Part shown: piece after piece, positions 17,121 through 21,276 of the stretch
How the letters are laid out: each line of letters opens with the position of its first letter
Position numbering within the stretch: position 1 is the stretch's first letter
The notes under the pieces: generated by a model
Database searches by the model: none
Told to the model about the DNA's origin: nothing
Seen by the model: the letters and a program-made list of their open reading frames with translations, nothing else
Origin: Thermodesulfobium acidiphilum
GTDB lineage: Bacteria > Thermodesulfobiota > Thermodesulfobiia > Thermodesulfobiales > Thermodesulfobiaceae
Direction of reading: 5' to 3'
Assembly (NCBI RefSeq): GCF_003057965.1
Contig: NZ_CP020921.1
Location: 436,501 to 500,500, forward strand
Length of the DNA stretch: 64,000 nt
Program-made: the position numbers and the translations under genes

Positions 17121-18022
17121 TTTCTGCCGTAAGCTTTTTTATTATCCATCTTGCTCCTGGCGATCCTAGCACCCTCTTGATAGATCCAAGAGTAAAACCA
17201 GAAGATCTTGCAAGAATAAGAAACAATTTAGGTTTGAACCAAAGTATTTATGTGCAATTTTTAATCTGGTTTAAAAACGTTTTATTTCTAAATTTTGGTA
17301 GGTCATTTGTAGATTCAAGGCCTGTTTTGGATTTAATATTGGAGCGTTTGCCTGCAACGCTTGAATTAATGGGTTCTGCTTATCTGATCGGTTTTTCGAT
17401 CGGTATTTTGTGGGGGATCTTATCGGCGTTGTTTAGGGATAAGTTCGATATTGTTTCAAGTATAATTTCCTTTATTGGGCTTTCTGTTCCATCGTTTTTT
17501 CTTGCACTTATTTTAATTAGAGTTTTTGCTGTAAGTTTGAAATGGTTTCCTGTGAATGGCTATGTTTCTGTAGGTATTCCTTATCCTAGTTTAGAATTCT
17601 TTTCGAATCACATAGCTCATCTTGCTCTTCCAGTTTTTACTATCTCATTAGGCATTATATTTTCTGTGATGAGGTATCAAAGGAATGCAGCAATAGAAGT
17701 GTTTCAAGAAGAATATATCCAGTTTGCAATAGCAAAAGGTTTGTCAAAAAAAAGGATAACCTTTCATGTCTTAATAGTGGCTATAATACCAATAATTACC
17801 TTGTTAGGATTGTCTCTTCCTGACATATTGGGCGGAGCTTTCATTATAGAGACAATTTTTGCCTGGCCTGGCATAGGAAGACTCGGGGTTAACGCTATAT
17901 TTTCTAGAGATTATCCTGTTATTATGGGTATAGTTGTTTTTTCTTCTGTTTTAGTAATTCTTTCTAATTTATTGGCTGACATTATAAATAAATTACTTGA
18001 TCCGAGAACCGCAGAAGATTAA
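17066..18022 (+). CDS. DppB/OppB-type ABC transporter permease
   Basis: A 318-residue inner-membrane protein with six predicted helices. The N-terminal signature is ITKRLLSAIALVFIISAVSFFIIHLAPGDP, with LGLNQSIYVQF and the EAA loop EYIQFAIAKGLSKKRITFHV, all typical of peptide/nickel permease subunits. GGAG (17056-17059) favours the GTG at 17066 over ATG 17054. No partner permease (DppC), substrate-binding protein or ATPase gene is adjacent, so the substrate is unknown and the partners must lie elsewhere. Confidence 0.88.
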   Translation: MAWYITKRLLSAIALVFIISAVSFFIIHLAPGDPSTLLIDPRVKPEDLARIRNNLGLNQSIYVQFLIWFKNVLFLNFGRSFVDSRPVLDLILERLPATLELMGSAYLIGFSIGILWGILSALFRDKFDIVSSIISFIGLSVPSFFLALILIRVFAVSLKWFPVNGYVSVGIPYPSLEFFSNHIAHLALPVFTISLGIIFSVMRYQRNAAIEVFQEEYIQFAIAKGLSKKRITFHVLIVAIIPIITLLGLSLPDILGGAFIIETIFAWPGIGRLGVNAIFSRDYPVIMGIVVFSSVLVILSNLLADIINKLLDPRTAED

Positions 18023-18125
18023 AATTTTTTTACTTTTATTAAGAAAAATATGGTAAAATCATTTACAATAAATAGATAGTTAAGGTTTTTTGATTAAACA
18101 ATAAGTTGAAGGAGGATTTACTAAA

Positions 18126-19058
18126 GTGCATAAAGTTAAGGGATTTTTGATCCTGTTGTTTATTCTTTCCTTTACTTTACTTTCTACTAGTTTAGCAAGT
18201 GCTTCTATATTTTCTAAAATTTTTGGCTCTAAAGATTCAAAATCTAATGAGACACAAATGCAAAACGTTACATCTGCCGACAATACCAATTCTGACTTTC
18301 AAAAGTGGAATAGTGAGGTAGACAGTCTTTTGAACTCTCTTTCTTCCAATAATCAAACTTCTACAGGCAATTCTCTTAAAACAAGTTCCACAAACGTTAA
18401 CTCCAACGCATCTGCCTCAACATCAACAAATTCTTTAAAAACTAATGTTTCAAGCCAAAAAGAAGAGATTAAACAGGATACAACGGTTAAAAGTGTTAAT
18501 GATCTAACTTCTACAAGGACTGGAAATAATAGTTCGAACTCTGTTGGGGTTCCTTTGAACTCTGCTGGTTGTATTAAAATTACTGACGCAGAATATCCAC
18601 CAGTAAATTTAATGAAAAATCAATTTATTGATAATGTGAAGTTGTTTAACGATGGCACGAAGGTTGTACTCCTTTTAGAAAGTACAGTTCCTTTTGAACA
18701 AGCTGATATTAAACAGTATGCATTCCCGGATCAAATTATTATAGATATTCCAAATATTTTTCTGGACAAATCTGTTAAAACGGGTCAATTTAGCCCTCAG
18801 GGTTTAAATTATGTAAATATGGTAAGAATCCAAAATTTTGATTCTGATATACTAAAATCTTCAAGAATTGTATTAACTTTCCCAGATACTCCAAAGTATA
18901 CAATTTTGAAAACAGACGATCCCAAAAAGCTAGAAATAGCTTTTGAAGTTCCATCACTTGAAACTACCTTAAAAAAGAATGAGAATACCAGTCAGGATAC
19001 AGGTGCTAATAGTGTAAATACCACAGCTAAAGCTCCAGTTGATAGTGGCAAAAAATGA
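18126..19058 (+). CDS. Exported AMIN-domain protein
   Basis: A 310-residue secreted protein: signal peptide (about 1-27, LASAS), a long Ser/Asn/Thr-rich linker (about 35-145), then an AMIN-type beta domain (about 165-275; NVKLFNDGTKVVLLLES...YAFPDQIIIDIPN). AMIN domains target N-acetylmuramoyl-L-alanine amidases and secretins to peptidoglycan. No amidase domain is attached, so a wall-binding or secretin-associated role is inferred. GTG start with AAGGAGGA upstream. Confidence 0.75.
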   Translation: MHKVKGFLILLFILSFTLLSTSLASASIFSKIFGSKDSKSNETQMQNVTSADNTNSDFQKWNSEVDSLLNSLSSNNQTSTGNSLKTSSTNVNSNASASTSTNSLKTNVSSQKEEIKQDTTVKSVNDLTSTRTGNNSSNSVGVPLNSAGCIKITDAEYPPVNLMKNQFIDNVKLFNDGTKVVLLLESTVPFEQADIKQYAFPDQIIIDIPNIFLDKSVKTGQFSPQGLNYVNMVRIQNFDSDILKSSRIVLTFPDTPKYTILKTDDPKKLEIAFEVPSLETTLKKNENTSQDTGANSVNTTAKAPVDSGKK

Positions 19059-19103
19059 CATATTATATAATATAATTACTTTATAACAGTTTGGAGAGGT
19101 GAA

Positions 19104-20120
19104 ATTAAAACGAGTGTAAATGTTGCTGTAATTGGTGCAGGAGATTGGGGCGTAAACTTAATTAGAAATTTCTTCGAATTAGGTTATCTCCGTAGTGTGT
19201 GTGATCTGGATTCAGAAAAGTTGATAAAGGTGGAGAGCCAGTACAAAAGCGTTAATTGTGTTACAAATCCAGATGAAATATTTTCTTCTAAGGATATAGA
19301 TGCCGTTGTGATATCTACGCCGTCGTCTTTTCATTATTCTTTAGCAAAAAAAGCTCTTAATAGTGGAAAGCATGTCTTTGTAGAGAAGCCAATGGCCCTG
19401 AATGTAAAGGAAGGCGAAGAGCTGGTTGAACTGGCCAGGTCGAAGGATTTGAGGTTATTGGTGGGTCATGTTCTTTTATATCATCCTGCTGTTCAAACTC
19501 TTCACCAGTTAGTTATGGAAGGTGAACTTGGAGATATTCACTATATTCATTCAAGCAGGTTGAATTTAGGAAAGGTTTCTTTTGATGAATCAGTTCTATG
19601 GAATTTGGCTCCGCATGATTTGTCAATATTTTTTTATCTGCTTGGACTTGAAGGAGATATTGTGGTATCTAGTACAGGGCATAGTTTTTTGAGCGAAGAT
19701 AGGGTAGATATTGCCCATGTAACGCTTGAATTTAAAGATATATTTGGAAATATCTTTGTTTCCTGGTTACATCCTCGTAAAATTCAGCAAACAGTAGTTA
19801 TAGGGACGAAGAAAATGGCTATATTTGATGATAGAGCTCCTCATAAGCTGATTCTTTACAATAAAGGAGCTAAGATTGTTAACGGAAAGCCATTTTTAAA
19901 TTCTGGTGGAGAAAAGATAGTTGACTTTGAACAAAGCGAACCGTTGAAAAATGAATGCAGATCTTTTATTGAGTCGATTATATATAAAAAGGATCCAATA
20001 ACTGAGGGTATGCAAGGTTTAAGAATCCTCGAAATTCTTGAGGCTGCAGAGGAATCTATACTAAAGAAGGGTGCTCCTGTTAAGTTGTCTTACAAATCTA
20101 AAAAGGGTGTCCTTATATAA
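19104..20120 (+). CDS. Gfo/Idh/MocA-family oxidoreductase with apparent ATT start codon
   Basis: The Rossmann N-terminus (VNVAVIGAGDWGVNLIRNFFELG) is in frame upstream of the first GTG (19197), yet the frame back to its stop at 19068-19070 has no ATG, GTG or TTG. ATT 19104 lies 7 nt after GGAG (19093-19096) and gives a normal-length start, MKTSVNVAVIG. The protein (338 residues) has EKPMALNVKEGEEL and a C-terminal GFO/IDH/MocA domain with NLAPHDLSIFFYLLG. It is probably an NAD(P)-dependent sugar or inositol-type dehydrogenase; the substrate is not evident. It overlaps or abuts the downstream gene. Confidence 0.85.
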   Translation: MKTSVNVAVIGAGDWGVNLIRNFFELGYLRSVCDLDSEKLIKVESQYKSVNCVTNPDEIFSSKDIDAVVISTPSSFHYSLAKKALNSGKHVFVEKPMALNVKEGEELVELARSKDLRLLVGHVLLYHPAVQTLHQLVMEGELGDIHYIHSSRLNLGKVSFDESVLWNLAPHDLSIFFYLLGLEGDIVVSSTGHSFLSEDRVDIAHVTLEFKDIFGNIFVSWLHPRKIQQTVVIGTKKMAIFDDRAPHKLILYNKGAKIVNGKPFLNSGGEKIVDFEQSEPLKNECRSFIESIIYKKDPITEGMQGLRILEILEAAEESILKKGAPVKLSYKSKKGVLI

Positions 20121-20121
20121 A

Positions 20122-21276
20122 GTGTTCTTTCATGCTTTTAGTTCTAGTGAAGCTATCTTAAAAAACATAAAAATTGTTGATTCTACTTTAAGGGATGGAG
20201 AACAAACAGCGGGGGTTATTTTTACTAAACAAGATAAAGTTAAAATTGCTAAAGAATTAAATGATTTAGGTATTTATCAAATTGAAGCTGGAATACCTGC
20301 CATGCTGGGGGAGGAGTTTGAAGCCATTTCGGCTATTGTTAAACTTGGTTTAAAATCAAAGATAATGTCCTGGAATAGGCCCGTTTTGTCCGATATTGAC
20401 ATGTCTTTGAAATCAGGAGTAGATTCGGTTGGAATTTCCTGTCCAATTTCTCCAATTCATCTACACTTTAAATTGGGATTAGAATTTGATGAAGCTCTTA
20501 AATTAACTGATAAAGCAATAAATTATGCAAAAAAACATGGCCTTTATGTCTCTACTCATATGGAAGATGCAGGAAGGGCGCCAAGGAATTTTTTGGTTAG
20601 ATTCGCTCTTATGGCAAAAGAATCTGGCTCTGATAGACTTAGAATTTGTGACACTTCAAGCGTAATGGATCCGTTTAAAGTTCATGAAACAGTAACCTAT
20701 TTGTCTGAGAGAGTGGGCATACCCTTAGAAGTTCACATGCATAACGATTTTGGTATGGCTACGGCAAACACCCTTGTTGGCATTGCCTCTGGCAGCGAGT
20801 TTGCAAGCGTTACTGTTTTAGGATTGGGGAAAATGGCAGGGAACGCTTCTTTGGAGGAGGTTATTGCTGCGCTAAAGTTTCTCTGGGGAGTAGACCTGGG
20901 GGTTGACCTCAAAGGAATGGCTTCTTTATCAAAGTATGTGAGCAAGAAATCAGGTATAGAAATACCTGATTTTAAACCTATAATTGGCAAGAAGCTCTTC
21001 AGTACTGAATCCGGAATCTCACTGGATGCAAGAAAGATGGGAGAAAAGATTTCGGCTTTTTCAGCTCAAGACCTTGGGATGGTAGAACAACTGGTAATTG
21101 GTAAGCATTCTGGTCCTAAAGCTATAAAAAACAAATTTGAAGAATTTGGTATCCAACTAAGTGACGAACAAATAAACGTTATATTGCCAAAAATTAAAGC
21201 AAAAGTTTTAGAATTATCAAGAACTCTTTTTGACAAAGAATTGATGTTGATCTATAAGGAAACTTTTAATAATTAA
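20122..21276 (+). CDS. Homocitrate synthase / NifV-LeuA family acyltransferase
   Basis: A 384-residue DRE-TIM metallolyase-like enzyme condensing acetyl-CoA with a 2-oxoacid. Signatures: IVDSTLRDGEQTAGV at the N-terminus, VHMHNDFGMATANTL (metal ligands) and GLGKMAGNASLEEV. The sequence resembles homocitrate synthase/NifV more than isopropylmalate synthase, and the LeuA regulatory domain is absent. No nitrogenase or AAA-pathway lysine genes are nearby, so the 2-oxoacid is uncertain. Start uncertain: GTG 20122 or GTG 20107. Confidence 0.85.
   Translation: MFFHAFSSSEAILKNIKIVDSTLRDGEQTAGVIFTKQDKVKIAKELNDLGIYQIEAGIPAMLGEEFEAISAIVKLGLKSKIMSWNRPVLSDIDMSLKSGVDSVGISCPISPIHLHFKLGLEFDEALKLTDKAINYAKKHGLYVSTHMEDAGRAPRNFLVRFALMAKESGSDRLRICDTSSVMDPFKVHETVTYLSERVGIPLEVHMHNDFGMATANTLVGIASGSEFASVTVLGLGKMAGNASLEEVIAALKFLWGVDLGVDLKGMASLSKYVSKKSGIEIPDFKPIIGKKLFSTESGISLDARKMGEKISAFSAQDLGMVEQLVIGKHSGPKAIKNKFEEFGIQLSDEQINVILPKIKAKVLELSRTLFDKELMLIYKETFNN

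Follow-up and report, generated by a model that had tools for sequence, protein, structure and literature searches.

A Gfo/Idh/MocA-family oxidoreductase gene in the window (the whole stretch of 64,000 nucleotides of Thermodesulfobium acidiphilum analyzed here) is most probably translated from an AUU codon, as a weak and IF3-dependent start, a reading to which we assign a probability of roughly 85% from sequence comparison. Both the anatomy of this start site and its conservation were observed directly: no in-frame canonical start (ATG, GTG, or TTG) lies upstream of the NAD-binding motif, and the near-cognate ATT codon was kept together with its Shine–Dalgarno (SD) sequence in all four genomes of the genus. 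From these features, we infer that the strong conserved SD, GAGGUGA, would position the 30S subunit, that the initiator tRNA-fMet would pair imperfectly with AUU, and that the protein would begin (f)M-K-T-S-V-N-V-A-V-I-G-A-G-D-W-G, i.e., (M)KTSVNVAVIGAGDWGVN... IF3 rejects starts of this type; a low yield dependent on the IF3 level would therefore be expected. It is our guess that the AUU codon caps the oxidoreductase level, and the retention of so poor a start by all four genomes hints at selection favouring a low or controlled output.

Reading frame, protein family, and start site

The window derives from a single-contig genome of 1,774,794 bases (labelled G000). By the ORF reading of the window, the oxidoreductase frame runs from the TAA at 19068–19070 to the TAA at 20118–20120, and after the first of these stops it reads TAT AAT TAC TTT ATA ACA GTT TGG AGA GGT GAA ATT AAA ACG... 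An initial sequence-only reading of this DNA had claimed that the conserved GAGDWG motif stands upstream of the first canonical start, GTG 19197, and that no ATG, GTG, or TTG occurs between the stop at 19068 and this GTG. Both claims were borne out by the frame reading, the former also by the Pfam alignment, in which position 1 of the GFO_IDH_MocA profile falls on residue 16 of the stop-to-stop frame, that is, on residue 5 counted from the ATT. The first canonical codon is located downstream of the NAD-binding motif, and a start there would entail the loss of the first 31 residues, GAGDWG among them.

Judged by its domains, the protein is an ordinary member of the Gfo/Idh/MocA family, with an N-terminal Rossmann NAD(P)-binding domain (PF01408, E 3.2e-26, residues 16–133 of the stop-to-stop frame) and a C-terminal substrate domain (PF22725 and PF02894, over cut-off). 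The best NCBIfam match, archaeal UDP-N-acetylglucosamine 3-dehydrogenase (NF040723), reached 157.1 bits against a curated cut-off of 450, and the substrate is therefore left unnamed. Several solved structures align near the ATT position, namely 7bvj (query 7 at residue 6), 3c1a (query 4 at residue 10), 6o15 (query 5 at residue 2), and 3ezy (query 4 at residue 2); the remaining structure matches have longer N-termini or alignments beginning further in.

The sequence-only reading had also placed a GGAG 7 nt before the ATT. This GGAG is indeed found at 19093–19096 at that distance, but it is not conserved, the site being TTTGGAGAGG in G000 and G001 and TTTAGAGAGG in G003 and G002; the conserved SD is GAGGTGA (table 1). 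Its spacing, measured from the final G in the GGAGG register to the ATT, lies at the short end of the usual range in G000: in 380 kb of this genome, among 185 pairs of an SD match of at least 6 nt with a canonical codon located within the first 40 codons, some of these canonical codons being perhaps no real starts, the spacing was 4–11 nt in 159 and exactly 4 in 16. The promoter-like pattern ahead of the gene belongs to a class counted four times in 18000–20300, compared with 8.8 expected by chance. Predicted folding of the start region was weak, an Rfam scan of 18900–19400 gave no match up to E 1, and the 23-mer GAGAGGTGAAATTAAAACGAGTG had no exact counterpart in viral contigs.

Table 1. Coordinates of the features discussed, in window positions unless a genome contig is named
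Feature	Location	Strand	Remarks
Gfo/Idh/MocA-family oxidoreductase gene	19104..20120	+	338 codons from ATT plus TAA
Proposed AUU start codon	19104..19106	+	Same in 4/4 genus genomes
Conserved Shine–Dalgarno GAGGTGA	19096..19102	+	7-nt anti-SD match, spacing 4
Identical block, 57 nt	19094..19150	+	Four genomes; SD, ATT, codons 2–15
First in-frame canonical start codon GTG	19197..19199	+	Within Rossmann fold; use unlikely
Out-of-frame mini-ORF GTG AAA TTA AAA CGA GTG TAA	19099..19119	+	Joins gene only via −1 shift at AAAA
Promoter-like TTGATA-16-TATTAT	19039..19066	+	Begins at end of preceding ORF; weak evidence
RNase J, apparent ATT start	G000:C1:540501-542198, L196-L199	-	PF22505, TIGR00649 over cut-off
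Presumed NrnA-like DHH/DHHA1 gene, apparent CTG start	G000:C1:546937-547902, L201-L204	+	DHH, DHHA1 domains
LpxL-like acyltransferase, apparent CTG start	G000:C1:520258-521046, L209-L212	-	PF03279
murA	G000:C1:536625-537944, L259 near 18970	+	G000, G001, G003 compared

Conservation of the start region

Among the 41 genomes searched (G000 included), the genus set comprises G000 (the window genome), G001, G002, and G003. The oxidoreductases of the other three share 98%, 91%, and 91% protein identity with that of G000, the last match being in two pieces on two contigs, and the G002 DNA at this locus is also present in the MAG record JAJXTU010000078.1. A common start region, GAGAGGTGAA-ATT-AAA-ACG, was observed in all four, and the comparison of relatives agreed with the sequence-only reading in that no orthologue within the genus carries an ATG at this place. 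When the four genomes were searched for the start pattern AGAGGTGAAATTAAAACG with up to three mismatches, the four exact matches all fell on the oxidoreductase, and the inexact matches numbered 17, versus 16 for a reversed control. Where G000 and G001 bear a TGG 12 nt upstream of the ATT, the other two genomes, G003 and G002, have an in-frame TAG; the base that makes this TAG also abolishes the GGAG. Since the TAG closes the frame, only AGA, GGT, GAA, ATT, and later codons are possible starts in these two genomes.

The start lies in a block that is identical base for base (table 1). Between G000 and G003, nucleotide identity is about 80% over the rest of the coding sequence and 65% in the preceding gene. 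All 13 comparable codons among codons 2–15 are identical in this pair, against 145 of 287 in codons 17–338 (Fisher p 0.0002), and the identical codons beginning at the ATT form an unbroken series of 15, the longest in the gene, compared with a later maximum of 8. Ranking 113 genes with a G003 alignment (from 249 queried) by the excess identity of the start region (−14 to +47) over the gene body placed the oxidoreductase first (0.968 vs. 0.767) and the RNase J gene described below seventh; by start-region identity alone, with a target set that also held a stretch of G002, the oxidoreductase was second of 113. Flanking bases are unusually conserved at these two ATT genes, but at two CTG genes only the codon is preserved and the bases around it differ. 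The absence of strong start-region conservation at the CTG genes, which ranked 42nd (LpxL-like) and 111th (NrnA-like) of 113 by excess identity, is a point against the AUU reading, as are the reach of the conservation to codon 15, beyond what a start codon alone would explain, and the very weak performance of AUU as a start codon in E. coli. The genus has one deep split, so the four-genome conservation corresponds to one or two independent comparisons.

Start codons as such were also followed across the 113 positions compared between G000 and G003, of which 93 are unchanged canonical starts and eight are canonical interchanges (ATG/GTG 3, GTG/ATG 2, ATG/TTG 2, TTG/GTG 1). Eight more face an alignment gap or a codon that is not a start, perhaps through wrong start choices of the script, and the two ATT and two CTG starts are unchanged; four genes are too few to separate weak-start conservation from chance by this measure alone. 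One base past the oxidoreductase stop, the window holds an HMGL-family gene (homocitrate/isopropylmalate synthase-like, 20122–21276). It was tried as a start-less candidate and dropped, having GTG in G000 and G001 and ATG in G003 and G002 at one and the same place; the ATT of the oxidoreductase exhibits no such drift. The arrangement of the two genes suggests that they may be translationally coupled, and because only one base separates them, weak AUU initiation may lower translation of the HMGL-family gene as well.

Beyond the genus, homolog starts were examined at 95 of 110 loci, with the weaker matches L016–L030 left out. A canonical start is missing at five of the 95, namely at the loci of the four genus genomes and at L031, whose DNA is that of G002; the remaining 90 homologs all have one (ATG, GTG, or TTG) at −7 to +8 codons relative to the ATT. 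As the homolog starts cluster there, the position is the normal family start; what is unusual is the codon. The suggestion that ATT 19104 would give a normal N-terminus is thereby supported, the codon being kept in four genomes at the place where homologs start.

Alternative readings of the start

The main rival to the AUU start, disfavoured on the sequence features and improbable in our estimate, would have initiation at the out-of-frame GTG 19099 followed by a −1 shift on AAAA (TTA AAA to AAA ACG), yielding M-K-L-K-T-S-V-N-V... The mini-ORF that it would employ lies inside the 57-nt identical block, although these bases are conserved under the AUU reading too. A tRNA-Lys could re-pair following the slip, CGA comes next in the zero frame with a stop soon after, and the N-terminus MKLKTSVNV... 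looks natural as well; furthermore, the murA gene of the genus is likewise devoid of in-frame canonical starts ahead of its conserved core and carries an ATG one frame off before a T5 run. However, GTG 19099 overlaps the only conserved SD and is without an SD of its own at a workable spacing: the four-nucleotide GGAG would stand at spacing 1, found in 2 of the 185 pairs, and is missing in G003 and G002. The slip site, moreover, consists of just four A residues, without a classic slippery heptamer. A true start at GTG 19197 or a later canonical codon, giving a shortened protein, appears very improbable. This GTG is the first canonical start and would be the choice of gene callers limited to ATG, GTG, and TTG, but its use would remove the GxGxxG motif, the canonical codons among the 30 codons that begin with it have SD matches of 3 nt at best, and the gene's longest stretch of identical codons stands upstream of it.

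One base change could make a canonical start, and the sequence-only reading had named a sequencing error as the finding that would undo it; the four assemblies of four genomes are, however, identical here base for base, which renders a start lost through sequencing or assembly error almost negligible. A different kind of proposal, compatible with the AUU start, is that an added RNA or DNA function (an operator, an mRNA structure, or an antisense RNA) maintains the 57-nt block, and we consider it possible but rather doubtful. The identity up to codon 15, with every compared synonymous site included, speaks for such a function; the weak predicted folding and the lack of an Rfam match speak against it, as do eight longer identical runs (59–99 nt) elsewhere in the 113 kb of G000–G003 alignment, at least four of which overlap tRNA genes. 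The 57-nt identity is unusual but not unique.

Weak starts elsewhere in the genus and in known systems

The occurrence of weak starts was surveyed in 380 kb of G000 compared with 425 kb of G001, covering 384 coding ORFs. In 26 of them, the first canonical start lies at least 20 codons in, and 17 of the 26 have aligning upstream frames. The DNA was inspected for eight of these 17, resulting in four clear cases, two ambiguous ones (murA and an ORF at the position of ftsQ), an ordinary ATG (a939), and an ORF that we take to be FtsI-like (G000 589272–591020), whose start is overlapped by an upstream ORF. Besides the oxidoreductase, the genes for RNase J, for a DHH/DHHA1 protein presumed to be NrnA-like, and for an LpxL-like acyltransferase appear, from their aligned start regions, to begin at ATT, CTG, and CTG, respectively. 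The RNase J gene, which has no canonical start ahead of the metallo-beta-lactamase core, exhibits AGGAGG-6 nt-ATT in all four genomes, in which the spacer varies and the ATT is kept. The NrnA-like gene has an in-frame TGA, two codons, and then CTG ahead of the DHH motif in all four, its G002 match consisting of two pieces with separate open frames, and the acyltransferase gene has AGGGAGAATAAY-CTG in 4/4. As three more genes in 380 kb share the feature, the 'very rare' of the sequence-only reading is perhaps too strong for this genus.

The ambiguous ORFs admit more than one interpretation. In murA, G000, G001, and G003 have no in-frame canonical start before the conserved core, and a conserved T5 run follows the ATG that lies one frame off, so that the sequence would fit an ATT start as well as a −1 shift. 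The ORF presumed from gene order to be ftsQ, which has no Pfam or NCBIfam match, was set aside as a CTG candidate: a GTG lies close to the CTG in G003, and its upstream part, read by eye, seems to overlap the preceding gene. An ORF that is presumably CysRS-like is ambiguous, with a TTG close by. In a control genus (G039 vs. G041), 22 of 346 coding ORFs have a late first canonical start, nine of them with aligned upstream frames, and inspection of five of the nine gave one possible case; there, at G039:C1:456901-457416, an ATA stands by eye opposite the ATG of the relative, a possible AUA start. The counts, four clear cases in 384 ORFs of G000 versus one possible case in 346 of a control pair that is more diverged (31% vs. 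12% of nucleotides), are too small to show a difference, and we claim no enrichment.

A search for an odd initiation apparatus in the initiator tRNA and IF3 revealed nothing unusual: the anticodon stem of an initiator-like tRNA (L145:19174-19250) is of the usual GGG/CCC type, and the IF3 of the genus aligns with solved IF3s over most of its length. The infC loci (L131–L134, outside the 380-kb stretch) read GGAGGTG AAY GTT ATA AGY in 4/4 genomes, with an in-frame GTG inside the SD, and infC of the genus probably starts at this normally spaced ATA. Tentatively, and with the odds well against it, one may envisage a weak-start set tuned by IF3 that would comprise the oxidoreductase and RNase J (AUU), the NrnA-like and LpxL-like genes (CUG), infC (AUA), and perhaps murA and the ftsQ-position gene. 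If true, this set would rise or fall together with the IF3-to-ribosome ratio, so that RNA turnover and the synthesis of the envelope would be linked to translational capacity. The RNase J, NrnA-like, and LpxL-like genes in any case provide a testable list for whether the IF3 level controls more than infC. Starts of this kind are prone to mis-annotation, as gene callers generally take only ATG, GTG, and TTG, and a mis-called oxidoreductase start would drop the NAD-binding motif.

Among the matches listed in literature searches on AUU and other non-canonical starts and on Thermodesulfobium, no title or abstract opening dealt with the start codons of this genus, and the sole paper with both the genus name and 'start codon' concerns a selenoprotein predictor. 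E. coli pcnB reportedly has, like the oxidoreductase, an AUU start outside infC, which is said to limit translation, going by the title of a 2002 study by Binns and Masters; the gene and the organism are different, and an experiment stands there in place of the reasoning from sequence applied to the oxidoreductase. Near-cognate AUN starts are otherwise known from infC itself, with ATT in E. coli and ATC in Streptomyces (PMC5472188) and AUA in S. aureus (PMC13009471). The likely AUA start of infC in this genus fits that series. However, infC is under autoregulation by IF3, and the oxidoreductase is a metabolic enzyme without a known role in initiation.

In Streptomyces sigR, the cited study describes a GTC start in 32 of 34 species and GTT in two, a strong conserved SD AGGAGGTG, and repression by IF3 demonstrated with overexpression and fidelity mutants (PMC5472188). 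The keeping of a rare start codon across a genus behind a strong conserved SD is shared with the oxidoreductase, although sigR encodes a regulatory sigma factor and employs another codon. The same study attributes to infC and sigR a strong SD placement, a near-cognate P-site codon, and discrimination by IF3 (PMC5472188), and by analogy the oxidoreductase would be initiated by a mechanism of this type. S. aureus cvfC1 (AUU) and ccpN (AUA) also have conserved starts with extended SD motifs, and their reporters gave about 10% of the AUG output in one medium, rising for ccpN to up to 30% in rich medium (PMC13009471). Their starts were mapped through ribosome profiling in other genes of a distant lineage, whereas that of the oxidoreductase is read from sequence. 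Conserved weak starts are thus already known from infC, pcnB, sigR, and cvfC1/ccpN, and the oxidoreductase would add one more.
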